DNA of 23,268 bases from a virus. Made by a program: the position numbers and the translations under genes. The DNA is taken from positions 1 to 23,268 of IMG/VR virus record IMGVR_UViG_3300037264_003420; one strand, given 5' to 3'. Positions 1,106 to 23,268 of this stretch are shown here, piece after piece (within the stretch, counting starts at the first letter, position 1; each line of letters begins with the position of its first letter). The notes below the pieces were generated by a model that made no database searches, had not been told where the DNA came from, and was given only the letters and a program-made list of their open reading frames with translations.

Positions 1106-1525
1106 ATGAATAATTACGGATTTAAGGTATTTAAAGAGAACAAAGACATTCTTAAAAGAGGCAAAATTAAAAGCCTCTTAGACGGTCAAAACCTCATCAT
1201 GTTTTTCAGCAAAGACAATAGATTTTTTGGTGCCCCAGAAGAGAGTAGAATCGTCTTCGCCAAGATGAAAAGCCCAGAAGGAGACGAAGATATGCCTGAC
1301 AATTGGGAAGAGGAAGCTAATTTTATGGCCTTCGACCTTATGAGCGCACTCAACGGCACGAACACCCAAAACATCTTCGCAGCAAAAGATTTACCACTTA
1401 TTAAAGTGCTAGACCGTGACAATATGGAAAAACACCTCATGCAATGCCCTGATGACCCAGATCAAAGCATCGCCCCTGCAAAAGTAGACAATATAGGAGT
1501 GATTAATCTAAAGGATAAAAAATAA
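1106..1525 (+). CDS. Protein of unknown function, 139 residues
   Basis: An acidic, soluble-looking protein starting MNNYGFKVFKENKD. A GGGGT stretch about ten bases before the ATG is a plausible ribosome site. There is no recognisable domain; the middle is acidic (PEGDEDMPDNWEEE) and the C-terminus includes a DDPDQS segment. Its stop overlaps the ATG of the zinc-finger nuclease gene (TAATG at 1523-1527), so the two are translationally coupled and may act together. Confidence 0.7.
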   Translation: MNNYGFKVFKENKDILKRGKIKSLLDGQNLIMFFSKDNRFFGAPEESRIVFAKMKSPEGDEDMPDNWEEEANFMAFDLMSALNGTNTQNIFAAKDLPLIKVLDRDNMEKHLMQCPDDPDQSIAPAKVDNIGVINLKDKK

Positions 1526-2181
1526 TGTTCGGAAAAGACGACGGAAAAAGAAAGTATCAATGCTTCGTCTGCGGAGTAAACTTTGAAGATATTGTATTGA
1601 TGAATGAGCATATCCTAGCCAAACATGAAGAACTTAAAGAATATGTTCGCTGCCCATTATGCAATTATTGTGTAAGAGACTTAAGACTCCATGCAAAAGT
1701 AAAACACCCAGGCAGGGCACTCCCCAAAAACACTGGTCCTAATAGAGCCATTGTTTGGAAAGACCAAGCTGGAAGACCAAAAAGGAATAGAAAGCCCGCT
1801 TTCAGAAAAGGTCATTTTATCAGCATTAAGAATGGTGGTAAAGAATTTGAATATCAGTCAGGCTATGAATGCGAAGTGCTAGAATGTATAGAACTAATAC
1901 CAGAAGTGGTAGCGTTTGAAGCCCAGCCATTCAAAGAAGGCATCCCCTACTTATACCAGGGAGAAGCACATAACTATTTCCCAGACATACTACTAAAATT
2001 CAGCGATGGGCATGTCGAAGTTTGGGAGATTAAGCCAGCCAATCAAACTATGCTTCCACTCAATGAAGCTAAATGGAAATCTGCAAACATTTATTGCCAG
2101 ACAAGGGGATGGGAATTTATTGTTATTACAGAAGTGGGAATTGGAAAGCTTAAACAAAGAGCAAGAAGCCTGAAAGAGTAG
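1525..2181 (+). CDS. Two C2H2 zinc fingers plus a TnsA-like PD-(D/E)XK nuclease domain
   Basis: Residues 13-61 hold two zinc-finger-like units: C13-x2-C16 with H29/H34, and C43-x2-C46 with H56/H61. A basic linker (GRPKRNRKPAFRKG, 83-96) follows. Residues 110-205 look like the TnsA N-terminal/PD-(D/E)XK fold: a Tyr-Glu pair near 114-115, YFPD at 151-154, and WEIKP at 167-171 giving the D154, E168-x-K170 catalytic set, then a K...YC...GWEFIVITE segment typical of TnsA and T4 gp4-type proteins. Possible roles are a site-specific (homing) endonuclease or a gp4-like head-completion nuclease with an added DNA-binding head. An AAGGA site lies upstream. The domain call is fairly sure; the role is not. 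Confidence 0.75.
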   Translation: MFGKDDGKRKYQCFVCGVNFEDIVLMNEHILAKHEELKEYVRCPLCNYCVRDLRLHAKVKHPGRALPKNTGPNRAIVWKDQAGRPKRNRKPAFRKGHFISIKNGGKEFEYQSGYECEVLECIELIPEVVAFEAQPFKEGIPYLYQGEAHNYFPDILLKFSDGHVEVWEIKPANQTMLPLNEAKWKSANIYCQTRGWEFIVITEVGIGKLKQRARSLKE

Positions 2182-2207: not shown

Positions 2208-3467
2208 TTACTCTTGCAGTTTTGATAGAAGGTCTTTAGCTGTTTCTGCTGCCTTGGTATCAGGATACTTCTTAATGATATCCTCTAACCTGTTCTTAAC
2301 AGAGGCCAACTTCTTTTCCTTAATCAAGTCCTTGGCCATGTTTAGCTTGCCGTTTGCGGCCCTCTCATTGTCTTCTTCCGTAGGCTCTAGCTTAGGCATA
2401 GGCACTGCTGCTTTAACCCCAAGCCTTGGGACGACATGGTTAATCTCGTCACCAGCCTTGAAAGAAACCTTTGCATTGTAATTCTGCTTTACTCCACCTT
2501 CAGTCCATTGAACCTTAATATCATAGTTGTAAACCAACTTGGGATCAAGTGGTGGACTGATATACTTCCTAATAAGACCCTTATGCGGCATTTTCAGGTC
2601 ATTTAACCAGACTTCAGCCTTTTCATCAGGCAATTCTACTGTCAACCAAGCTGTATCTGGGTCGTCCTCATCAAAAACTGCAAGCGGTTGTGGCACTGCC
2701 ACAGGAGCGGCTGCAACGCCCAAACCATACCCATCATACCCACCAAACCCGCCGCCTCCACCGAAATTAAAGGATGGTGCATAAGTTGGACTACCGCCTG
2801 TGTAAGTTCCACCAGTTGGGCTGTAACTGTAGCTATTACCACCACCGAAACCACCATTGCCGAAGCCACCACCATTACCATTGCCATACCATCCGTCATT
2901 ATAACCGCCACCATTACCATTGCCACCACCGAAACCACCACCAAACCCGCCGCCAACTTTGACGTTTACGTTAGTCTTATTGGTGTTGGTATTCTTGTTG
3001 TTATTACCGTTCTTATTGGCATTGGCATTACCGTTAACATTACCGTTGGCATTACCGTTTTTGTTTCCATTACCATTCTTATTATTTATACCGCCATTAC
3101 GTCCTGCACAAGCTGTATTGAATCCACCATTACCGAATCCACCATTCTTGTTGCACCTATTTGGAATAGGACACGGCACAGGAGGCTTAGTCTTCTGTTG
3201 CGTATTAGCTACAAACGGTTGCGGCCTTTGCTGTGGAGCAACAAACGGAACAACTGGCTTTTGCTGCTGAGCAAACGGTTGCGGCCTTTGCTGTGGAGCA
3301 ACAAACGGAACAACTGGCTTTTGTTGGGGAATAGGTGGCTTAACCTGATTTCCCTTACCATTTGGCGCATTCTTATTCTTGCCGTTATTACCAGCGGCTT
3401 CAACAAATCCGTTGCAAAATAATCCAACCATCATCATTAACACACAGATTTTGATTAACTTGTTCAT
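2208..3467 (-). CDS. Secreted Gly/Asn-rich protein with planctomycete TIGR03000 domain
   Basis: I place the start at the ATG at 3467 (MNKLIKICVLMMM) because GAGG lies six bases before it; an in-frame ATG at 3485 lacks one. The 419-residue product has a signal peptide (about 1-24, cleavage near VEA-AG), a Pro/Gln region with a duplicated 20-residue unit, a long Asn/Gly-rich stretch (about 105-245), then a TIGR03000-type domain (about 273-346) with its diagnostic ISPPLDP, Y-x-Y and W-x-E-G-G segments. A C-terminal helical repeat (about 370-419) has the KYPDTKAAETAKDLL pattern common in planctomycete exported proteins. TIGR03000 is known essentially from Planctomycetes. It is likely a surface or envelope protein; its role in a phage is unknown. 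Confidence 0.85.
   Translation of the reverse strand: MNKLIKICVLMMMVGLFCNGFVEAAGNNGKNKNAPNGKGNQVKPPIPQQKPVVPFVAPQQRPQPFAQQQKPVVPFVAPQQRPQPFVANTQQKTKPPVPCPIPNRCNKNGGFGNGGFNTACAGRNGGINNKNGNGNKNGNANGNVNGNANANKNGNNNKNTNTNKTNVNVKVGGGFGGGFGGGNGNGGGYNDGWYGNGNGGGFGNGGFGGGNSYSYSPTGGTYTGGSPTYAPSFNFGGGGGFGGYDGYGLGVAAAPVAVPQPLAVFDEDDPDTAWLTVELPDEKAEVWLNDLKMPHKGLIRKYISPPLDPKLVYNYDIKVQWTEGGVKQNYNAKVSFKAGDEINHVVPRLGVKAAVPMPKLEPTEEDNERAANGKLNMAKDLIKEKKLASVKNRLEDIIKKYPDTKAAETAKDLLSKLQE
3212..3323 (-). repeat. Tandem 60-base repeat inside the TIGR03000 gene
   Basis: Positions 3212-3263 and 3272-3323 are identical over 52 bases, at a 60-base period. They encode two copies of a 20-residue unit containing KPVVPFVAPQQRPQPF. 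The perfect DNA identity implies a recent duplication or ongoing copy-number variation in the Pro/Gln-rich spacer. Confidence 0.9.
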
Positions 3468-3496
3468 GGTTTGCCTCGTATTCATGTTAGATTAAA

Positions 3497-3537: not shown

Positions 3538-4047
3538 TTACTGACCAATTCTGATTCTGATATTGGCACTATTGTTGTTGGTATTGCTGTTTGTGTTTGT
3601 GTTTGTGTTTGTGTTGGCATTAGTGTTCGCATTATTATTTGCGTTTCTGTTGCCATTCACGTTACTATTGCGACCACCACTGGCAGGCTTATTGTTGCCG
3701 TGGCCTTGACCATTTGGCTTGCACTGCGGGCGCGGCTTGCCGTCGTTTGGCCTGCAATTAGGGCGCGGCTTGCAATGACCGTTCTCGTTTGGCTTGCAAT
3801 TCGGACGCGGCTTGCAATGACCATAAGCATGGCCTTGCCCTCGGTTTCCTGGCTTGCCACAACCTGGCTTGCCATGACCGTGACCTTGCCCATTACCATT
3901 AGAAGGCTTGCAATTACCATTAGGGCCACACTTTGGAGGGCATTTAGGCTTATTTGGAGGATTAGTAGCATTTGCTACACCACCAAAACACAGACCAAAC
4001 AAAGCCAGACCAGCTAGCACAAAACTACACTTCACTAACTTCATCAC
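3538..4047 (-). CDS. Secreted low-complexity Cys/Lys/Pro- and Asn/Thr-rich protein
   Basis: It starts at 4047 (second ATG at 4044) behind an AAGGAG site. Residues 1-27 form a clear signal peptide ending near ANA-TN. The mature part has repeats of the form GHCKPRPNCKPN and GQGHG (residues 30-120), rich in Lys, Pro, Cys, His and Gly, then an Asn/Thr-rich tail with an alternating NTNTNT run (about 130-165) and a short RIRIGQ end. The evenly spaced cysteines and histidines could form disulfides or bind metal. No family is recognised. With its neighbour at 2208-3467 it forms a pair of envelope-directed, compositionally extreme proteins. Confidence 0.75.
   Translation of the reverse strand: MMKLVKCSFVLAGLALFGLCFGGVANATNPPNKPKCPPKCGPNGNCKPSNGNGQGHGHGKPGCGKPGNRGQGHAYGHCKPRPNCKPNENGHCKPRPNCRPNDGKPRPQCKPNGQGHGNNKPASGGRNSNVNGNRNANNNANTNANTNTNTNTNSNTNNNSANIRIRIGQ
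3588..3616. repeat. Hexanucleotide microsatellite
   Basis: More than four tandem copies of TGTGTT (plus strand) encode the Asn-Thr alternation in the tail of the secreted protein. Such a tract is prone to slippage in units of two codons and would change tail length without shifting frame. Confidence 0.8.
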
Positions 4048-4709: not shown

Positions 4710-5341
4710 AATAATCTTCTTTCTTTAATATAAGGAATAAGAGAATTGTCGATCTTTCTATACAAATCGTCTAGACCACCATCGTTTATTAAAAAATAAT
4801 CGAAATATTTCAATTCTGGAACGCTGTTCTCGATCCAGTTATCAATATCAAACAGAATCTTACCATTGCTGTAATTCTTTGCGCAATAATCCACATAAGG
4901 TCTTATTTGAGATTCAGAGGGATTCGGATCATTATTCTCAAAGCCTGGACGCCAGAGCAAAACTGAAACGCCACCCTGCTCTTTAACCATTTTAGCTTCA
5001 TTGAGATATCTGCCATCAGATATCACCATATTAAATTTGTTTCTCAATGCAGTTCTGATCCAAACATCGGATTGTATATGCCTGAAGCCATCACCAATCT
5101 GTTGCAAACTTTTACGAATATTCAAATCAAATTCTGGAGGCACTTCATCTTTGCGTTTCCACTCTTCAATAAATTCCCATGTTACATCGAAGGAACTCAT
5201 GAACACTTTCTTCAAAGCGTCAGCGAATCCAATACGCTGCCACTTGTTTTCAGTCTCATTGTTCAGTTGTTTCACAAGATAGTTGGCCACGGAGTCTTTG
5301 CCGCCTGCCAACTGTGCGAAGATACAAATTTTGTTACTCAT
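4706..5341 (-). CDS. Deoxynucleoside monophosphate kinase-like protein (T4 gp1 type)
   Basis: A 211-residue protein from the ATG at 5341; an in-frame GTG at 5368 is possible but has no better ribosome site. Family-like features are a modified P-loop with GGKDS at 13-17 (T4 gene 1 has GVKRSGKD), FADALKK near 39-45, RKSLQQIGDGFR at 76-87, and a strand-loop ISDGRYLNEA at 107-116 followed by VLLWRPG. Such kinases phosphorylate dNMPs to dNDPs for phage DNA synthesis. The first P-loop glycine appears to be replaced by Ala, so activity should not be assumed. No Shine-Dalgarno is seen; GATAAT lies ten bases before the ATG with TTGATT 16 bases further up, suggesting a nearly leaderless transcript. Confidence 0.7.
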   Translation of the reverse strand: MSNKICIFAQLAGGKDSVANYLVKQLNNETENKWQRIGFADALKKVFMSSFDVTWEFIEEWKRKDEVPPEFDLNIRKSLQQIGDGFRHIQSDVWIRTALRNKFNMVISDGRYLNEAKMVKEQGGVSVLLWRPGFENNDPNPSESQIRPYVDYCAKNYSNGKILFDIDNWIENSVPELKYFDYFLINDGGLDDLYRKIDNSLIPYIKERRLL

Positions 5342-5420
5342 GATGAGACTATTATCTACAATTGGCACTAAAAATCAATATCATTTATTTCCAAAATTTT
5401 GTCTGGACAATACTCTTACA

Positions 5421-5606
5421 ATGTATATGCAGAAGAAACGGGAAAAACTTCAGAAAGATTTGGTCATCAGGGTACAACCTTCACTTTTCAAAAAGTTCCA
5501 GAAGAGGTGTACTGATGATTACAAATCCATTTCACAGGCCATAAGGGACTTGATGCGACAATATATTACCGAAAAAGATACCAACGATAATAAGAATGGA
5601 ATATAA
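5421..5606 (+). CDS. Ribbon-helix-helix (CopG/Arc-like) DNA-binding protein
   Basis: 61 residues from the ATG at 5421 (another ATG at 5427). Residues 14-49 have the ribbon-helix-helix pattern: a basic-hydrophobic strand (LVIRVQPSLF), helix (KKFQKRCTDDY), turn with KSIS, and helix (QAIRDLMRQYI). These proteins dimerise and bind operators as repressors. It stands first in the plus-strand block with the intein gene and the Cys-rich gene, and is divergent from the dNMP kinase gene, so it might regulate either. The in-frame upstream region to 5283 overlaps the kinase gene and is unlikely to be coding. No Shine-Dalgarno site is obvious. Confidence 0.7.
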   Translation: MYMQKKREKLQKDLVIRVQPSLFKKFQKRCTDDYKSISQAIRDLMRQYITEKDTNDNKNGI

Positions 5607-5635
5607 TGAATGGAATGAAAGGTAGGGCAGCATGA

Positions 5636-6952
5636 ATGAAAAAGAAAAAAGAGATAGAAAAGAAATGCAAGAATTGCGTATGCGGAGATACACTAATTAT
5701 AATCGACAACTGCGTGAAAAGGATAGATGAAGCACGCAATGCAAAGAAAACATTTGTAAATAACAAATGGGAGAAAATTCTCAATTGGCAGTTTACTGGC
5801 AAAAAAGAAACCTTACAAATTACTACAACATTAGGTCTTCAATTAAAATTAACCAAGGATCATCTAATTGCAACGCCTAATGGATGGGTGCAAGCTGATA
5901 AAATCAAAATCAATGATGAGTTAATTTGCTTAAAAGAATATCAAAATAAAAATTTTGATTTAATAAGTGCGGAAGATGCTTTGTTCATAGGTGCAATAAC
6001 TGGAGATGGGTGGATAGGTCATTATAAACAAAAAGAAAAAATATTAACTGGAATCGGTTTCGGATTTTCGGCACAAAGATACGAAGATTGGAAGCCGATG
6101 TTAGAATATGCATCATTGAAATTTAATTCAAAAGAAAAAATACATTTTGTCAAAAACACAAAATCCCCTTTTATTAGGATAGATTGGAGAAATAAAAAGG
6201 CGGAAGAATTTCAAAAACTCTTCAATAAAAACCACATACCAGACATTGTATGGAAATCTTCAAAAACAATATGGGGGTCTTATCTAAAAGGATTATTCTC
6301 TACTGATGGGTGCCTATCATGTACCAAGAGTCAAATTCAAATAATGTTTTACCAAACAACAAAATCACTCATTTGTGAAGTTCAAATGATGCTTCGCATG
6401 ATGGGGATTTATAGTTATTTAACACATTCAAAAAGACCACCACATAAAGACCTTTGGTGCATTACGATAGGAAGAATAGAATCTGTTACTATGTTCCAAA
6501 AAAACATTGGATTTGTGGACTTTGCAAGAAATCTAAAATTAAATAAATTTATAACTGAAATTAATACGCCTAAATCGTCAAGATATAAAACAATAAGGAA
6601 AGTAAACAAAACGGAAAGAGTGAAATCAATAGAACTTTTAGAGGAATCGAATGTGTATGATATGAGTGTCGATAAAGAAGAAAGTTTTTTTGCAAATGGT
6701 ATTTTAGTTCATAATTGTCTTTTATACGACGACATTAAAGAACAATGTAAAGTCGCAATTTTAATAAACGGGGAACAGATACATCTGCCCGTTTCTCCTG
6801 AAGATAACTGCCATATGGACGAACTTGGGATTCCAGTTGAGCAAGTTCGTTGGTGGGTTGAAGACCCTAGAACGGGTAAGCCCACAGATGGAAAAGGAAT
6901 TGTTAAAATCGAATATCCAGAAGGCTTCTTTGGGGAGAATAATAAGAAATAA
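5636..6952 (+). CDS. Small Cys protein interrupted by a LAGLIDADG intein
   Basis: The 438-residue precursor consists of a 13-residue N-extein (MKKKKEIEKKCKN), a 347-residue intein (14-360) and a 78-residue C-extein starting CLLYDDIKEQC. After splicing the product would be 91 residues with cysteines at 11, 14, 24 and 45, a CxxC...C...C array suited to metal binding, and a conserved-looking tail (EQVRWWVEDPRTGKPTDGKG). I do not recognise the host protein. The start at 5636 gives the only frame that joins the intein; an out-of-frame ATG at 5632 is closer to the AGGTAGGG site. The stop overlaps the ATG of the Cys-rich gene (TAATG). Splicing is inferred from motifs. Confidence 0.8.
   Translation: MKKKKEIEKKCKNCVCGDTLIIIDNCVKRIDEARNAKKTFVNNKWEKILNWQFTGKKETLQITTTLGLQLKLTKDHLIATPNGWVQADKIKINDELICLKEYQNKNFDLISAEDALFIGAITGDGWIGHYKQKEKILTGIGFGFSAQRYEDWKPMLEYASLKFNSKEKIHFVKNTKSPFIRIDWRNKKAEEFQKLFNKNHIPDIVWKSSKTIWGSYLKGLFSTDGCLSCTKSQIQIMFYQTTKSLICEVQMMLRMMGIYSYLTHSKRPPHKDLWCITIGRIESVTMFQKNIGFVDFARNLKLNKFITEINTPKSSRYKTIRKVNKTERVKSIELLEESNVYDMSVDKEESFFANGILVHNCLLYDDIKEQCKVAILINGEQIHLPVSPEDNCHMDELGIPVEQVRWWVEDPRTGKPTDGKGIVKIEYPEGFFGENNKK
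5675..6715 (+). mobile_element. Intein with LAGLIDADG homing endonuclease
   Basis: The 347-residue insert starts CVCGDTLIII (splicing block A), has a block B region (LTKDHLIATPNGW), two dodecapeptide motifs GAITGDGWIG and GLFSTDGCLS typical of homing endonucleases, block F (VYDMSVDKEESFFANGILV) and the terminal VHN followed by Cys as the +1 nucleophile. All residues needed for class 1 splicing are present: Cys1, block B His, penultimate His, final Asn and +1 Cys. It is inserted between Asn and the second Cys of a CKNC motif. Confidence 0.9.
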
Positions 6953-7758
6953 TGCAGACTGGTTGCCAACCTCCATTTGTCAACGGTACGGGCGGCTGGT
7001 GTGGGTGTAACTGTAGATGTTGCCCGCCACCATGCTGTTGCGTGATTTCTGTATACTTTGAATGTGGTTCGCCATATAACGAAGAGTGTGCGCCTGAAGG
7101 CTGTTTCGGTTTAAGCTGTGCGCCATTTACACTTACTATGGCGAACTCACAGCCACTTCAACAAGTCAATAATCCTGCATGGACAAATCTGGCACTGCCA
7201 ACCCCTACGCCTGAATTGCCTGAATTTAGCAATTTGCCAATCCGCTCTAAAGACGGTAAATTCCAGCTTGGCACTGGTAGCGTACCATGCACAATACCTT
7301 GCTCAAACGTCTGCGTAGAATTAACATGCGGTGGTGGACCAACTCCTTGTTGCTGCCTACAATTAAAAGATGGCAAAATATATTCTGTCGGTAATGGGCA
7401 TGTTACCGCACCAACAATTGTTGATATACCGAGCAGTTGTGTGTATGCATATGTTTACATTAATGGAATGCCACCACCAGTGTTTGTTTGTGACGGCCAA
7501 GAGATTGTCGTCACTTTAGCTCCTATAGAAGAAGAATGCTGTTGCTGCCAGCAGGTTGATGTACAATGCTGTGGGTGTGAAACACAAATGGGATTTGCCA
7601 AGAAGCAAATCCCATTGTGGGTAAGAAAAACTGATAAACTAACTGGCAAGACTAAGATTAATCCAGAGACTGGCTTGCCTATACTTGCCATTAACAAGGC
7701 AGCACTTATACAACGTATCCAAGAAAGAGCTATGAAATCAAGACGAAGAGGCAAATAG
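6952..7758 (+). CDS. Very Cys-rich protein of unknown function (29 Cys in 268)
   Basis: The ATG at 6952 overlaps the stop of the intein gene; GGGGAG lies about 13 bases upstream. Cysteines cluster in four places: 17-31 (CGCNCRCCPPPCCC), 39-54, 109-136 (ending PCCC), and 197-213 (CCCCQQ...CCGC). Between them are beta-rich segments (VYAYVYINGMPPPVFVC, EIVVTLAP). The final 50 residues are different: a basic, Cys-free tail (QIPLWVRKTDKLTGK... ERAMKSRRRGK). There is no signal peptide, so cytoplasmic metal clusters are as plausible as disulfides. The gene is convergent with, and overlaps by 21 bases, the helicase gene at 7738. No family is recognised. Confidence 0.75.
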   Translation: MQTGCQPPFVNGTGGWCGCNCRCCPPPCCCVISVYFECGSPYNEECAPEGCFGLSCAPFTLTMANSQPLQQVNNPAWTNLALPTPTPELPEFSNLPIRSKDGKFQLGTGSVPCTIPCSNVCVELTCGGGPTPCCCLQLKDGKIYSVGNGHVTAPTIVDIPSSCVYAYVYINGMPPPVFVCDGQEIVVTLAPIEEECCCCQQVDVQCCGCETQMGFAKKQIPLWVRKTDKLTGKTKINPETGLPILAINKAALIQRIQERAMKSRRRGK

Positions 7759-9771
7759 TCTCTTCGCTTCCGCTAGTATTTCGTCAACTTCCGCTGTCTT
7801 CAAACCAGTAGCCTTGCGAACCCTTTCTGGACTATTGATAATAGATAGGAAATCCCTTAACCCTTCCTTCCAGAGTTTGTTCGCTCTCACTTTGCCGATA
7901 TGCGGAAGCTGACATAGTTCAACCATTGGCCCCTTGACACCATAAGTAACTCTTAACTGAAGCTGCCTGAGCCAACTAGTCTTTTGCCACTTGCCTGTGA
8001 ACCCATCAATAGCTTGAATAACTTGATTCAGACGCGGAAAATCAAAGTGTAATCCCCTTGTAAGTGACACAAAGATTGGATTGCTATTACCATTCATCAT
8101 CTGATGATATGCGTATGCAACTTTGATTGCTGGTTCCATCACAGCGCCTTTACCAAAAGCTTGATGCACCTGATTGGCAAACAAACTCATTTCTTCACGC
8201 TCTGCCTTACTGACAATGCCGAATCTATGAGTGTCTAAATTTGCCAATGCAACTGCCACTGATAAGTCGTCATTCTCTTTGTTGTTATCAAACAAAGCAG
8301 TAAAATTCTTCTTCAAATCAGACACATCGAACGGCGAGAAGTAGAACAAACTAGCAATCTTACCGATAGAAGTTACTGTATATTGACCTTCTTCTTCCCA
8401 GACCGCACCGCACTTCTTTAATAATTCCATAGTATGGTCAACGATACTTTCATCTAATTCATTAGCCTGGAAACAAGCCAAACTTCTCTTATACCAATGA
8501 TGCACATCATCGCGGTTCTTAATAGTCTCTTGATGTATTTCACTTACTAAATGGAAGGCAAGCACCTTATGGTGTTCACCCATCGCTGCCAACATCTGTG
8601 ATTGAATCAACTGTGGCTTTTTAATCCTTTCTTTATGCATATCATAAGTCTTCTCTGGTAGCAGTACATATGCATCGCCAACAGGATCAAATGCTGGACG
8701 ACCAGCACGCCCGAACATTTGCCATATATCATAAGTTGCCACTTCATCTAAACCACGATGGACGCCAAGAATGATTACTCTTCTGGCTGGAAGATTAAGT
8801 CCCCATGCCAACGTACTTGTAGCAACTATAACACGCAGATTCTTATTAGTTTTGAATTCTTTCTCGACTTTATTTCTCTTGGCTTTATCTAAATCTGCAT
8901 TATGAACTTCGCACTTAATGCCTGCTCCTGTCAGGGCTTCTTTCATTAAAGCACAAGTCTTCTTGGTGTGAGAGAATATCAGGAACTTATCATCTGGGTA
9001 GTATTCCACTATCTCCAGTGCCATATTTACTTTTTGTTTCTCGTTATCATCATAGGAACGTTCTCCGTCCCAATACTTCTCATAATGAAGGTTTAGTGGG
9101 CATGGTCTGTAAGTAGACTTCAACAAAACAGTGTGCTTATTATTCAGGATGAAGCTCGTCCAATCAGCAAGCTCATCAACATTAGGCATGGTTGCGGACA
9201 GGAAAACTAATCTGCAATTCTTATTAATTTCAGTGAATCGCATCATGCCAGCTTCTAGGTGGTCGCCGCGATTTGGCACCGTCAATAGATGCACTTCATC
9301 TGCTACGAGTGTGCCAACCTTCATCAAGAACTCGCTACGTTCTGAGCCAAGGTTACGCACCCTGGAATTAAACATTTCATAACTCATAACAATCAAATCC
9401 GCAGCTTCTAATTCCTTCTTACGTTCTGCCGTCAAACGATAGTCGCCAGTGCAAACCGATATTTTCAAATCTCCGAAATGATGGTTTTCATCTTGCCAGT
9501 CATCAATTTTTTCTTGTGCCAATGCTTTCAATGGCACAAGGTACAAGCCCTTACCTTTACGTTTACGGACTTCGTGTGACAATACCATTTCTGCACATAC
9601 TGTTTTCCCTGAAGATGTAGCAGTAGCAATCAGTATGTTATTATCTTTGTCGTAATATTCTAGAATCCTGCTTTGTACTGGATTGAATTTGTCGAAAGGA
9701 AATTTGGCAAGTGGGAATGTACTTGCATCAACTAAATCTCCACGATCACCTACTTTAACTACTGGAGGCAT
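7738..9771 (-). CDS. Hel308/Ski2-like superfamily 2 DNA helicase
   Basis: 677 residues with a GAGGAG ribosome site. Motifs in order are Q-motif-like NPVQ (30-33), Walker A ATSSGKT (51-57), motif Ia VPLKALAQEK (79-88), DEVH (158-161), SAT (192-194), motif IV FSHTK, motif V TSTLAWGLNLPA (318-329) and motif VI QMFGRAGRP (351-359). The C-terminal part resembles the winged-helix/ratchet region of Hel308 and ends in a helix-hairpin-helix (LPHIGKVRANKLWKEG, about 617-632). Such 3'-5' helicases act on stalled forks and recombination intermediates, and this one would serve phage replication or repair. It is not the UvsW or Dda type found in T4. Confidence 0.9.
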   Translation of the reverse strand: MPPVVKVGDRGDLVDASTFPLAKFPFDKFNPVQSRILEYYDKDNNILIATATSSGKTVCAEMVLSHEVRKRKGKGLYLVPLKALAQEKIDDWQDENHHFGDLKISVCTGDYRLTAERKKELEAADLIVMSYEMFNSRVRNLGSERSEFLMKVGTLVADEVHLLTVPNRGDHLEAGMMRFTEINKNCRLVFLSATMPNVDELADWTSFILNNKHTVLLKSTYRPCPLNLHYEKYWDGERSYDDNEKQKVNMALEIVEYYPDDKFLIFSHTKKTCALMKEALTGAGIKCEVHNADLDKAKRNKVEKEFKTNKNLRVIVATSTLAWGLNLPARRVIILGVHRGLDEVATYDIWQMFGRAGRPAFDPVGDAYVLLPEKTYDMHKERIKKPQLIQSQMLAAMGEHHKVLAFHLVSEIHQETIKNRDDVHHWYKRSLACFQANELDESIVDHTMELLKKCGAVWEEEGQYTVTSIGKIASLFYFSPFDVSDLKKNFTALFDNNKENDDLSVAVALANLDTHRFGIVSKAEREEMSLFANQVHQAFGKGAVMEPAIKVAYAYHQMMNGNSNPIFVSLTRGLHFDFPRLNQVIQAIDGFTGKWQKTSWLRQLQLRVTYGVKGPMVELCQLPHIGKVRANKLWKEGLRDFLSIINSPERVRKATGLKTAEVDEILAEAKRLFASSS

Positions 9772-11449: not shown

Positions 11450-12415
11450 TTAAGAGGAGTAAATTTTGCCATACAACACCTCATTAAGTAATGTTGGTTG
11501 TAACGCTTCTTGCGGTTCAATATTGAATTTATTGATTAACTCGTTGACCTGTTTACTAGTTATAATTCTCATGTGCTTAAAAAATTCATCAATCTCAGAT
11601 TTATGATTATAATAAATTCTCGCCAAAAACCAATCCCTAATTTGCTCCATGCCCGCCGACAAATCTCCGTTAAACCCCAAAAAGTTAATAACATCATCTA
11701 AATCCAACCAACTTAAATCATCTGGTTCAATATCTTTAGCAACTTCAAAGAAATGTATCAATAACCTAATCCAGTTTTTAACAAAAAAGGCATTCCTGCA
11801 CAGCTTATGTTCCCCAAGTCTAAACTCCAAAGTGTCTAAATCCCCAGAAACTAAATGATACGCATTAGCACTTAAATATTTATCGAATCCAAAAGTATCT
11901 ATTAACTCGTCGTCGGAGACAGACCCCATTTCCCATGCACACAACCCAAAAAACTGACAGAATCTACTGTTCTTCCTGCTACTAGGCACGCTATCAAAAA
12001 ACACAGGCTCACACTTAATCCACCACCTCAAAACATTAGCAATCTGCTTCGTACTTAAATCAGCTGTATTAATGTGTACATGAAAAGAACACCTGCCATC
12101 CGCAGAAATATCCTTTGTGTTAAAGGCATCAATCACCTTGACAATGTTCCTAAGTCCTAACCAACCACTTGAAACGGGTGAACAGACTTCTATCCCGCAG
12201 CTATTATCAGGCTTCAACACCCAATGACCAAGTGTTTTATACCAGTGCGTGTTACCGTAACCCCTTACCTCAACATATTCATCCAAAACAGATGAAATCA
12301 GGTTCGCCACATCATGAATGCCTTTCGGAAAAGCATTATGTTTGGTTTCTGCAACAGAATCAAAAGCATTTAATTCTGCCTCTATACCAAAAGGTCTACA
12401 ATAATAAAATTTCAT
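11450..12415 (-). CDS. Amidoligase_2-family COOH-NH2 ligase
   Basis: I choose the ATG at 12415 (MKFYYCRPFGIEAEL), which has AAGAGA upstream; a longer frame to 12529 would overlap the divergent gene. The 321-residue product shows the three hallmark motifs of the glutamine-synthetase-like amidoligase family: FGIEAEL (9-15), KPDNSCGIEVCSPV (68-81, with Asp and Glu that bind metal) and SFHVHIN (110-116). The C-terminal half is helical and less conserved. These ATP-dependent enzymes form amide bonds between a carboxylate and an amine, and phage members have been proposed to modify host envelope peptides or make small peptides. The substrate here is unknown. Confidence 0.85.
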   Translation of the reverse strand: MKFYYCRPFGIEAELNAFDSVAETKHNAFPKGIHDVANLISSVLDEYVEVRGYGNTHWYKTLGHWVLKPDNSCGIEVCSPVSSGWLGLRNIVKVIDAFNTKDISADGRCSFHVHINTADLSTKQIANVLRWWIKCEPVFFDSVPSSRKNSRFCQFFGLCAWEMGSVSDDELIDTFGFDKYLSANAYHLVSGDLDTLEFRLGEHKLCRNAFFVKNWIRLLIHFFEVAKDIEPDDLSWLDLDDVINFLGFNGDLSAGMEQIRDWFLARIYYNHKSEIDEFFKHMRIITSKQVNELINKFNIEPQEALQPTLLNEVLYGKIYSS

Positions 12416-12421
12416 AATCTC

Positions 12422-12450
12422 TTGACCTGCACACATACATTTTATATAAT
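12422..12450 (+). promoter_or_regulatory. Near-consensus sigma70 promoter
   Basis: TTGACC (12422-12427) and TATAAT (12445-12450) are separated by exactly 17 bases. Transcription would start near 12457 and read the gene at 12480. The box lies in the divergent gap to the amidoligase gene and may also affect that gene. Confidence 0.85.
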
Positions 12451-12479
12451 ACTTTAAAATCCCGCAAGAGATAAATATT

Positions 12480-12950
12480 ATGAAACAATGCTTGATGATC
12501 CGCACGAATGATCGTAAAAAGTTGTTCACTCATGAAAAGAACCTGCCACAACTCATCGAATTCTCAAAAGCATTCAATGCTGAGATTTCCATCGTTCAAA
12601 TTTCAAATGAGAAAGAAATCCTAGAGTTGGAAGAATTAGCCCCTGCCCTGTGTGAGAAAAGATCACAAAATCAAACAGAATATGAAGTTGTAGAAATTAA
12701 ACTCAAACCAAGAGAAAGCCGACAAACCATATTAAAAAGAGCTAAATATATCAAAAACACTATCAAAAGGAATCTCGTTAAGGGCAAAGTGGTATCTTTG
12801 AGGGATTTATCCAAGAAATACAAGAAGTACAAAATTACGACTGCATGTTTGTGTAATCATTTCAAACAAACTAGACATGAACTGGAACGGCAAGGTTACG
12901 TTTTTGTTAAGGTTGGCGGCGGCAAATACAAACTTACACCTGCCGTTTGA
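12480..12950 (+). CDS. Basic protein of unknown function, possible DNA binding
   Basis: 156 residues from the ATG at 12480 with a weak AAGAG site. The N-terminal 60 residues are mixed; the centre is strongly basic (ILKRAKYIKNTIKRNLVKGK) and the C-terminal 50 residues (VSLRDLSKKYKKYKITTACLCNHF... YVFVKVGGGKYKL) have the spacing of a helix-turn-helix followed by a beta wing. A winged-helix regulator is plausible but unproven. It is a single-gene unit with its own strong promoter and a terminator hairpin, and a strong host-type promoter suggests early expression. Confidence 0.65.
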   Translation: MKQCLMIRTNDRKKLFTHEKNLPQLIEFSKAFNAEISIVQISNEKEILELEELAPALCEKRSQNQTEYEVVEIKLKPRESRQTILKRAKYIKNTIKRNLVKGKVVSLRDLSKKYKKYKITTACLCNHFKQTRHELERQGYVFVKVGGGKYKLTPAV

Positions 12951-20695: not shown

Positions 20696-23268
20696 CTAGC
20701 CAATTCTTTCCCCATCTTTAGGTTCAAATTTCTTTTTACCAACACTGACTTTATCAATAACAGTTTCCGTGTGGTCAGCATCAGCTTCCTGAGCCTTTGT
20801 CATATGCCCCATGTAAGCCTGATGTGGTATCTCTTCCAGTCTCAGTGTTTGATCTTCAAAATGATAACGAATCTTGAATGAATACTTGGATTTACCATTT
20901 CTTGCCTTAGCAACAAACCCGCGACCAACGTTTGCCTTGTTTTCTGCTGGAGTTTGATTCAATGTCCAGAACGCATCAAATATCTGGAATTGTTTGAAGG
21001 AGTCGCCCTGATTCTTTTCATCCATAAACTCTTCAAGGCCCAAATCAGAAATGCTTCTATTTGGATGCACGGCAATAAGTGTGCAATGCTTTTCCTCGAC
21101 ACCGAAACCACGAATCTCTCGTAATAGTCTGAAACGTGAATCCCAACCTGCCAGGTTTGAATTATCCTTCATGTCGCCTGGATAATCGAATATCACCAAA
21201 TCTGGTCTGAACCCTAAAGACGTAATTTGTGCATAGTACGCTTTGATCGTACTCATATCTGCACTACCGCTTGGGAATTGCTTGATGATTAATCTTCTTT
21301 TATCTTCATACTCACTAACCGTATTCCTCAACGCACGCCACACTTCCTCCTTTTTCAAAATCAACTGATGATGACCGATGTGTGTTAATTGCGCATCGAA
21401 TCGGGTAGCAATACGGTCAGGGTCCATTTCTGTCGAAATGTATAAGACCTTCTTACCTTTCTCAATGTTGCAGGCGGATGCCCATGTAAGCGCAAGTGAA
21501 TTGTGGACGACCGTAAAATCACTAAGCAAAAACAAATGATTCCCATCTATCTCAAACCCATAAAATTCAGCACTCTTGTTATGCTTGATTACCCTGATAC
21601 CAGTAACTAAGTGATTCTTTGTCTGCTTCCTTGGTTCACACTTTTTATATTTTATCCTTACTGGTATTTGTGAACAATCCCCAGAAATACTGATTCTCCA
21701 ATAATAACCACCATTACCAGTTTGACACTTCTTAACACACCGTCTCATATAAGCTGCAAAACCTAAAGATCGTGCTAAAAACAAAACATCCTTTGCCAGT
21801 GTTTTGTTTTTCTGAATAAAATCATATCCGCCACATTTATGATTATACCCGTCAGTGTCAATTAGCCCAGCCAATAACTTTAGCCTAGACGCTCTGCTAT
21901 TAATCTTATAATCAAATGGTATATGCTTGTTGTTTATAAGATTATAATGACGCAGATCGTTCAATAAAGAATTTTTACTAACACCTTTGCCTGGAATTTT
22001 TACTTTGTTATCTTTTGAAAAAATGAAGTAATCATGGCCATCTTTAATCCTAACACTCAAACTTCTTTTTGCAGCAGTCTTTTTGACTTCTTCTACAACC
22101 ACATCATCGACATTAGTAACAGCAGATGTATTCTTGTGACCATCACCAAGCCAAAGTCCTAAGAAATAAGGGTCTATTTTTACTTCTCTAGCATCCCATT
22201 CAATACCAACTCTCCACCCCTTCATACATTTTTTGAAAGACTTGGATTCTTTCAACCATTCTTCAACGCTGATGTTAAATATGTTAGTATCGCCCATCCT
22301 TGAAAAATGATTGTGATATCTTACATTCTTCCTTATTTTAGTAGGTCTATCATTCCTTTTAGTTGGCTTTTTAGAACTCCTCTTAAGACTCAAAATATGC
22401 TTGCTGTTAACGAAATAAGATTCACCTTTGACTGGTTTAACTTCATAAACTTGGTCAATGAGACTATGTGTGTGCAACACTCTTCTTGGAGTAGAATCGT
22501 TACCCATTACCAAGTCCCCAACAAGAACATCCTCACAATTCTTAACTGTCCCGTCATACATCAAAATTTTAGTGCCCCTTATGGTGCATTTGCCTGTGCC
22601 TGCGGCACCCATCCATGCCCCCATTTCACCACGAACCAACCCGCCACCCATCAAACCATTATCAATAGCCCTGAAACCACTGGTAAATGTCTCTGCATTT
22701 TCTATATTTTGTTGAATTCTTATATATCGGTCTTCTAGAGTCTCAAAGTAATTCAAACCCATATCTATATTGCGATTCACCAACCTTGCTTCTTTATAGA
22801 GCAAATCAATCTTATCGAACGTTTCATCAGCTTCTGGATTCCTACGAATCAAATCAACAGACTTTGCAAATGCGATCTTAATTGCTTGGGTTTTAGCGAA
22901 ACTGGTGATCTTATCCAGAATGGCTTCTGGAGAATCCACCATCATCATGATATTACTGTTGCCGCCCTTAATGTAATAATCATAAATTAAGTTAATCTCA
23001 GTCTGATAAATCAAACGGATGGCACGATATGTGTCTTCTTGATTTTGGTATCTCTTTTTAAGAAATTCATCAATAAGTTCACGGAGGAATATCTTGCTAG
23101 GTTGCTGCTTATATTCCTCGAAATAAGTGAACAGAGTCTTGCATACAACTTGATGTATCTCACTTCTGAAATACTCTGGTTTGACTAAATTGATGCCTTG
23201 ACAGATGAAATAACGATTGCAAAGAAGAGTTCCTAAGACCATTCTTAAGAACTCTTCATCGAAAGGAT
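20696..23268 (-). CDS. dnaB/gp41-like: DnaB/gp41-like replicative helicase with intein (N-terminus beyond window)
   Basis: The frame is open through the right edge (upstream codons read PFDEEFLR before the first visible Met at 23242), so the N-terminus is missing. The extein is about 493 visible residues. The N-terminal domain (SEIHQVVCKTLFTYFEEY) is followed by the SF4 ATPase with Walker A GAAGTGK-S, split by the intein at Lys|Ser. Downstream are VLYISTEM, the Walker B-like PDLVIFDYPGD, AVHPNRS, and QIFDAFWTLNQT...GRGFVAKARNGKS. It is the replication-fork helicase that acts with primase. A DnaB-type loader is not visible. Its C-terminus is acidic/basic and low complexity. Confidence 0.92.
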   Translation of the reverse strand, partial: PFDEEFLRMVLGTLLCNRYFICQGINLVKPEYFRSEIHQVVCKTLFTYFEEYKQQPSKIFLRELIDEFLKKRYQNQEDTYRAIRLIYQTEINLIYDYYIKGGNSNIMMMVDSPEAILDKITSFAKTQAIKIAFAKSVDLIRRNPEADETFDKIDLLYKEARLVNRNIDMGLNYFETLEDRYIRIQQNIENAETFTSGFRAIDNGLMGGGLVRGEMGAWMGAAGTGKCTIRGTKILMYDGTVKNCEDVLVGDLVMGNDSTPRRVLHTHSLIDQVYEVKPVKGESYFVNSKHILSLKRSSKKPTKRNDRPTKIRKNVRYHNHFSRMGDTNIFNISVEEWLKESKSFKKCMKGWRVGIEWDAREVKIDPYFLGLWLGDGHKNTSAVTNVDDVVVEEVKKTAAKRSLSVRIKDGHDYFIFSKDNKVKIPGKGVSKNSLLNDLRHYNLINNKHIPFDYKINSRASRLKLLAGLIDTDGYNHKCGGYDFIQKNKTLAKDVLFLARSLGFAAYMRRCVKKCQTGNGGYYWRISISGDCSQIPVRIKYKKCEPRKQTKNHLVTGIRVIKHNKSAEFYGFEIDGNHLFLLSDFTVVHNSLALTWASACNIEKGKKVLYISTEMDPDRIATRFDAQLTHIGHHQLILKKEEVWRALRNTVSEYEDKRRLIIKQFPSGSADMSTIKAYYAQITSLGFRPDLVIFDYPGDMKDNSNLAGWDSRFRLLREIRGFGVEEKHCTLIAVHPNRSISDLGLEEFMDEKNQGDSFKQFQIFDAFWTLNQTPAENKANVGRGFVAKARNGKSKYSFKIRYHFEDQTLRLEEIPHQAYMGHMTKAQEADADHTETVIDKVSVGKKKFEPKDGERIG
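21500..22588 (-). mobile_element. Intein with LAGLIDADG endonuclease in helicase Walker A
   Basis: A 363-residue intein lies between the Walker A lysine and serine (GAAGTGK|CTIRGT ... TVVHN|SLALTW). Motifs present are Cys1, block A (CTIRGTKILMYDG), two LAGLIDADG motifs (GLWLGDGHKN and GLIDTDGYNH), block F/G (YGFEIDGNHLFLLSDFTVVHN), and +1 Ser. The host nucleotide-binding loop is incomplete until splicing. Both the endonuclease and the splicing residues look intact. Confidence 0.92.

Follow-up and report, generated by a model that had tools for sequence, protein, structure and literature searches.

Inteins are inclined to insert next to invariant residues (PMC5050341). In the native P. abyssi MoaA intein, and in a trap engineered into Ssp DnaE, a Cys at position -3 and the first Cys of the intein (Cys1) constitute a redox trap (PMC3922620, PMC10663303), and inhibition by zinc has been documented for inteins as well (PMC7360933, PMC10663303). 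Here, we describe an intein of a known kind in an IMG/VR virus record of 23,268 bases that is probably a fragment and is referred to below as the window. What sets the intein apart is its unusually small host protein and an insertion site at which redox or metal control lends itself to testing.

Results

The intein gene is a single open reading frame on the plus strand (5636-6952) that encodes 438 residues without an internal stop; at the base composition of the window, 347 open codons would arise by chance with P ~ 2e-14. The precursor consists of a 13-residue N-extein (5636-5674, plus strand; MKKKKEIEKKCKN), a 347-residue intein (residues 14-360; 5675-6715, plus strand) and a 78-residue C-extein followed by the stop codon (6716-6952, plus strand), and the joined exteins amount to 91 residues. 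In the N-extein, position -3 is Cys (5666-5668) and position -1 is Asn, each invariant across the host family, and the +1 Cys of the C-extein (6716-6718) is the second Cys of a CxNC motif in the host. Family conservation marks two further invariant Cys in the C-extein, at 6746-6748 and 6809-6811 on the same strand. The preliminary description of this locus had given the same 347-residue intein, 13-residue N-extein and 91-residue product, and translation of the reading frame reproduces these figures exactly. A frameshift separating the exteins is ruled out at the level of the reading frame, which is open throughout 5636-6952.

The intein was assigned to class 1, with a homing endonuclease, from Pfam and NCBIfam matches, its predicted fold and its absence from homologues. 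The N-terminal HINT splicing half (5675-5928, plus strand) carries block A (CVCGDT) and block B (TKDH, 5852-5863), and was delimited by alignment with the Spl DnaX mini-intein and by predicted strands. The LAGLIDADG homing endonuclease domain (5969-6562, plus strand) was placed from Pfam, the predicted fold, its match to I-DmoI and its motif residues, and its two motifs, LFIGAITGDG (5981-6010) and YLKGLFSTDG (6281-6310), each contain the catalytic Asp. The C-terminal splicing half (6611-6715, plus strand) contains block F, VYDMSVDKEESFFANG, in which Glu replaces the block F His, and block G (VHN). On the 438-residue reading frame, Pfam Intein_splicing scores 57 bits (cut-off 35.8) and LAGLIDADG_3 scores 42.5 bits (cut-off 22.5); NCBIfam intein_Cterm scores 30.7 bits (cut-off 15.6), and intein_Nterm falls below its own cut-off on the precursor. 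Of the residues expected of class 1, Cys1, the block B TxxH, the block F Asp, the penultimate His, the terminal Asn and the +1 Cys are all present.

The precursor was modeled with AF2 from 32 aligned sequences, and the model has a mean pLDDT of 83.7 and a pTM of 0.79, with pLDDT of about 90 across most of residues 14-360 and poorly defined exteins. Compared with solved structures, the model aligns with the TliVMA HEN-intein 7qss (VIA Z 30.8, rmsd 2.8, 309 aligned residues) and with PI-PfuI 1dq3 (VIA Z 29.2), while its splicing part matches the Ssp DnaB mini-intein 6frg (Z 22.1, rmsd 1.4 A), its endonuclease part matches I-DmoI (Z 17), and a Foldseek search with the precursor model gave E 1.1e-17. 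The model thus predicts a HINT fold, the two LAGLIDADG motifs with their catalytic Asp sit in a matching predicted endonuclease fold, and the element is an in-frame insertion with an exact junction that is missing from homologues. Judged by its residues and predicted fold, the element is a homing intein of the standard class 1 type, and the earlier view of it as a full homing intein is upheld by Pfam scores above cut-off, the catalytic residues and the model. Identity to the relatives found is at most about 31%, and a single-sequence search for close intein relatives found none.

Intein-free alleles of the spliced 91-residue sequence do exist. The joined exteins, used as a single query, found 15 intein-free loci on viral contigs, and an alignment query extended this to 75 intein-free viral loci; the 595-kb phage LR756511 has an intein-free homologue as well. 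The nearest intein-free homologue is 95% identical to the joined exteins in an alignment that runs unbroken over the junction, and all intact homologues are continuous across the site. At the DNA level, 23 of the 25 bases around the site are identical between the window and the empty allele L002, and the junction is clean and scarless. Both intein boundaries are confirmed because these intein-free alleles exist. No intein was found in any homologue of the small protein, and occupancy is therefore sporadic. Two homologues are incomplete: that in L088 (near 8001-8257) appears to be frameshifted, which may reflect a sequencing error, and that in L089 ends at the contig edge. A match among the genome_contigs (L090) was discarded as a chance PVEQVRWW in a TetR-like reading frame. 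Silent sites of the joined exteins are closer to those of L018 than are other genes (17/25 vs 0.43, P 0.009); this was 1 of 21 pairs and an intein-less pair gave P 0.011, and co-conversion is not claimed.

Glu occupies the block F His position at residue 349, where His is found in 20 of 31 related phage inteins, Asn in 8 and Glu in 1. This His is common and not strictly defining, so that Glu is compatible with class 1 membership, although it may lower the rate of splicing. Taken further, the rarity of Glu could mean that splicing is impaired and that this allele is decaying or already dead. We consider this highly improbable, given that the other catalytic residues are all intact, the reading frame is open, the exteins have kept their close identity to an empty allele, and more than one related intein departs from His at this position, as the eight with Asn illustrate.

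The host protein was examined in an alignment of 48 homologues, which has C9, N11, C12, C22 and C43 among its invariant positions (in L002 numbering) and not one invariant Ser or Thr. All four Cys of the exteins are thus among the invariant residues, and the +1 Cys is the second of the invariant CxNC. This conservation among the 48 homologues places the intein directly before an invariant Cys, with both halves of CxNC invariant, and bears out two earlier proposals, that the insertion lies within a CxxC pair in which the +1 residue provides the second Cys, and that the small host protein is conserved. Since the four Cys are invariant, the site that the intein interrupts probably binds a metal, and the host is probably a metal-binding protein that is important, and probably essential, to the phage. 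The 91-residue protein gave no match over threshold in Pfam, PHROG, NCBIfam or PDB, and no secure zinc family. DUF6370 (PF19897) was rejected as the host family, as scores were below the Pfam cut-off: matches are weak in 41 of the 48 members (lowest E 5.9e-5), the window protein is not among them, and a look-up of DUF6370 across the records gave no match. The AF2 model of the 91-residue protein is poor (pLDDT 62.8), and a fold search with it found nothing. Of the eight records examined, seven have the gene once each, and the eighth has one frameshifted copy.

Immediately downstream, on the plus strand, lies a gene for a Cys-rich 268-residue protein of no known family (6952-7758), the start codon of which shares one base with the stop codon of the intein gene, and the arrangement suggests that the two are probably translationally coupled. 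In most relatives examined, a similar Cys-rich reading frame starts a few bases from the stop of the homologue, and the proteins that follow the small gene have variable Ser- or Pro-rich linkers. Upstream, a ribbon-helix-helix-like reading frame (5424-5606, plus strand) was assigned from a weak Pfam match and synteny, and the small-protein gene is flanked by genes for a dNMP kinase and a helicase. Promoter-like sites within 5200-7900 are not more frequent than in shuffled sequence. A gene for a gp4-like head-closure/TnsA-like nuclease is close by (1525-2181, plus strand); it occurs in 83 of the loci, and its product has a possible N-terminal zinc finger below the Pfam cut-off. Elsewhere in the window are two Gly/Asn/Pro-rich reading frames with signal-peptide-like starts (2208-3485 and 3538-4047, minus strand), and a putative amidoligase (11450-12529, minus strand; Pfam Amidoligase_2).

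A second intein, of 363 residues with Hom_end_hint and LAGLIDADG matches, is located at 21500-22588 on the minus strand of the window, within a DnaB-like helicase reading frame (20696-23242), where it is inserted in the P-loop between GTGK and S. Contigs L093-L098, which have the small four-Cys gene, carry inteins in SpoVR, the T4-like portal (gp20), ribonucleotide reductase and a DNA polymerase III alpha-like reading frame, the ribonucleotide reductase and polymerase hosts being assigned by reading only. Carriers of the four-Cys gene are an intein-rich group of large T4-like phages.

In order to place the host among those of other inteins, we surveyed 71 related intein reading frames, a set biased toward relatives of the window intein, in which the 91-residue protein is by far the smallest host; that it is the smallest known is not claimed. 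The next-smallest hosts, in L133, L139 and L145, have approximately 204-297 extein residues when measured between stops, in reading frames at least two of which are cut by locus ends, and by reading look like pieces of a terminase or other ATPase. Other hosts in the survey are SpoVR and the T4-like portal (from Pfam), helicase (from annotation) and ribonucleotide reductase (from our own reading of the sequence).

Discussion

The reading that we favor with considerable confidence, from the gene sequence, the predicted fold and the intein-free alleles, is that a selfish class 1 LAGLIDADG intein invaded a strictly conserved, single-copy protein of 91 residues and four Cys in a large T4-like phage, and that it splices, rebuilds CxNC and homes. 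The intein would have inserted immediately before the second Cys of CxNC. Splicing would proceed from a thioester at Cys1 through transfer to the +1 Cys to cyclization of the terminal Asn, and would restore CxNC and with it the probable metal site. The apparently intact endonuclease would copy the intein into intein-free alleles such as L002, which retains the target site. We infer splicing and homing from the intein, and metal binding from the invariant Cys of the host. Under this explanation, any reversible oxidative block by a disulfide between Cys(-3) and Cys1 would follow incidentally from where the intein inserted.

Such a block is chemically plausible by analogy, and an oxidized precursor may well be trapped in vitro. 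The N-extein Cys lies at -3 relative to Cys1, and the parallel with the MoaA intein drawn in the preliminary description is therefore exact in position. It could be argued that the arrangement is a physiological redox switch, in which the Cys(-3)-Cys1 disulfide forms under oxidizing conditions and the small metal-binding protein is held back until reducing conditions return in the cell. The -3/1 geometry is exactly that of the native P. abyssi MoaA intein and the engineered Ssp DnaE trap (PMC3922620, PMC10663303), and residues 9 to 360 of our model align with 3nzm, the DnaE redox-trap structure (Z 17.2). Nevertheless, we regard a switch as unlikely. Cys(-3) did not arise as an intein switch, because it is part of the host protein and invariant across all of the intact homologues that lack an intein. 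Furthermore, the host family offers only four invariant Cys, Ser or Thr residues as nucleophiles, all of them Cys, and one of these has a Cys at -3. Given that Cys(-3) belongs to the host and that so few sites were available, selection for a switch is not indicated. This intein has a single occurrence, and Cys at -3 is also seen in 2 of 38 junction contexts elsewhere in the survey, namely L118 and the ribonucleotide reductase intein of L095 (CNP/C, the slash marking the junction). The latter is on the minus strand of the same contig as the nearest intein-free allele.

A related argument concerns metal. The precursor retains CKNC, with Cys1 standing in for the host Cys, and zinc or another metal bound by C11 and Cys1 might inhibit splicing so that metal supply gates the protein, in keeping with the zinc inhibition already on record for inteins (PMC7360933, PMC10663303). 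However, inteins without an extein CxxC are also inhibited by zinc, the metal site of the host is itself putative, and Pfam, PHROG and PDB give no secure zinc family; metal gating therefore appears very unlikely. The broader idea of a natural redox-gated intein, with the CxNC of a small host serving as a Cys(-3)-Cys1 disulfide or a metal clamp that delays splicing until reducing conditions prevail in the infected cell or metal becomes available, strikes us as quite improbable, but if it were true the phage would sense its host through intein chemistry. Regulation of splicing is possible in that the sequence allows it, but the sequence does not indicate it.

On the favored reading, of a selfish intein in a conserved protein, intein hosts now extend to a very small conserved phage protein, of 91 residues and with an N-extein of only 13, whereas the other identified hosts in the survey are large enzymes or a portal protein. 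Its presence in a four-Cys protein that is single-copy and uncharacterized marks that protein as one that matters across a broad group of large T4-like phages. The intein also provides a further natural case of Cys(-3), small enough to be expressed whole, in which redox or metal control can be tested in native exteins.

Compared with described systems, the intein is closest in whole fold to the TliVMA and PI-PfuI HEN-inteins (7qss, 1dq3), which share the HINT domain and the two-motif LAGLIDADG endonuclease, but identity is approximately 17-22% over aligned residues and the host and insertion site are unrelated. By sequence, the solved intein that matches best is the Spirulina platensis DnaX mini-intein (7cfv; E 1e-9, with VYD..V and ANG..VHN within the match), but this one lacks an endonuclease and has the block F His where the phage intein has Glu. 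Inteins in SpoVR, TerL, helicase and ribonucleotide reductase of related phages are LAGLIDADG inteins of the same kind, some of them on contigs that also have the small four-Cys gene, yet their hosts are several hundred residues long and they too reach at most 31% identity. The P. abyssi MoaA intein likewise has a host Cys at -3 that is in principle able to pair with Cys1, but its host is an archaeal oxidoreductase rather than a 91-residue phage protein, and the disulfide is native there and only a candidate in the phage. Finally, the Ssp DnaE redox-trap construct shares Cys at -3, Cys1 and, as far as the model predicts, a similar splicing fold, but Cys(-3) was engineered in that construct, whereas in the phage it is a natural and invariant residue of the host protein.
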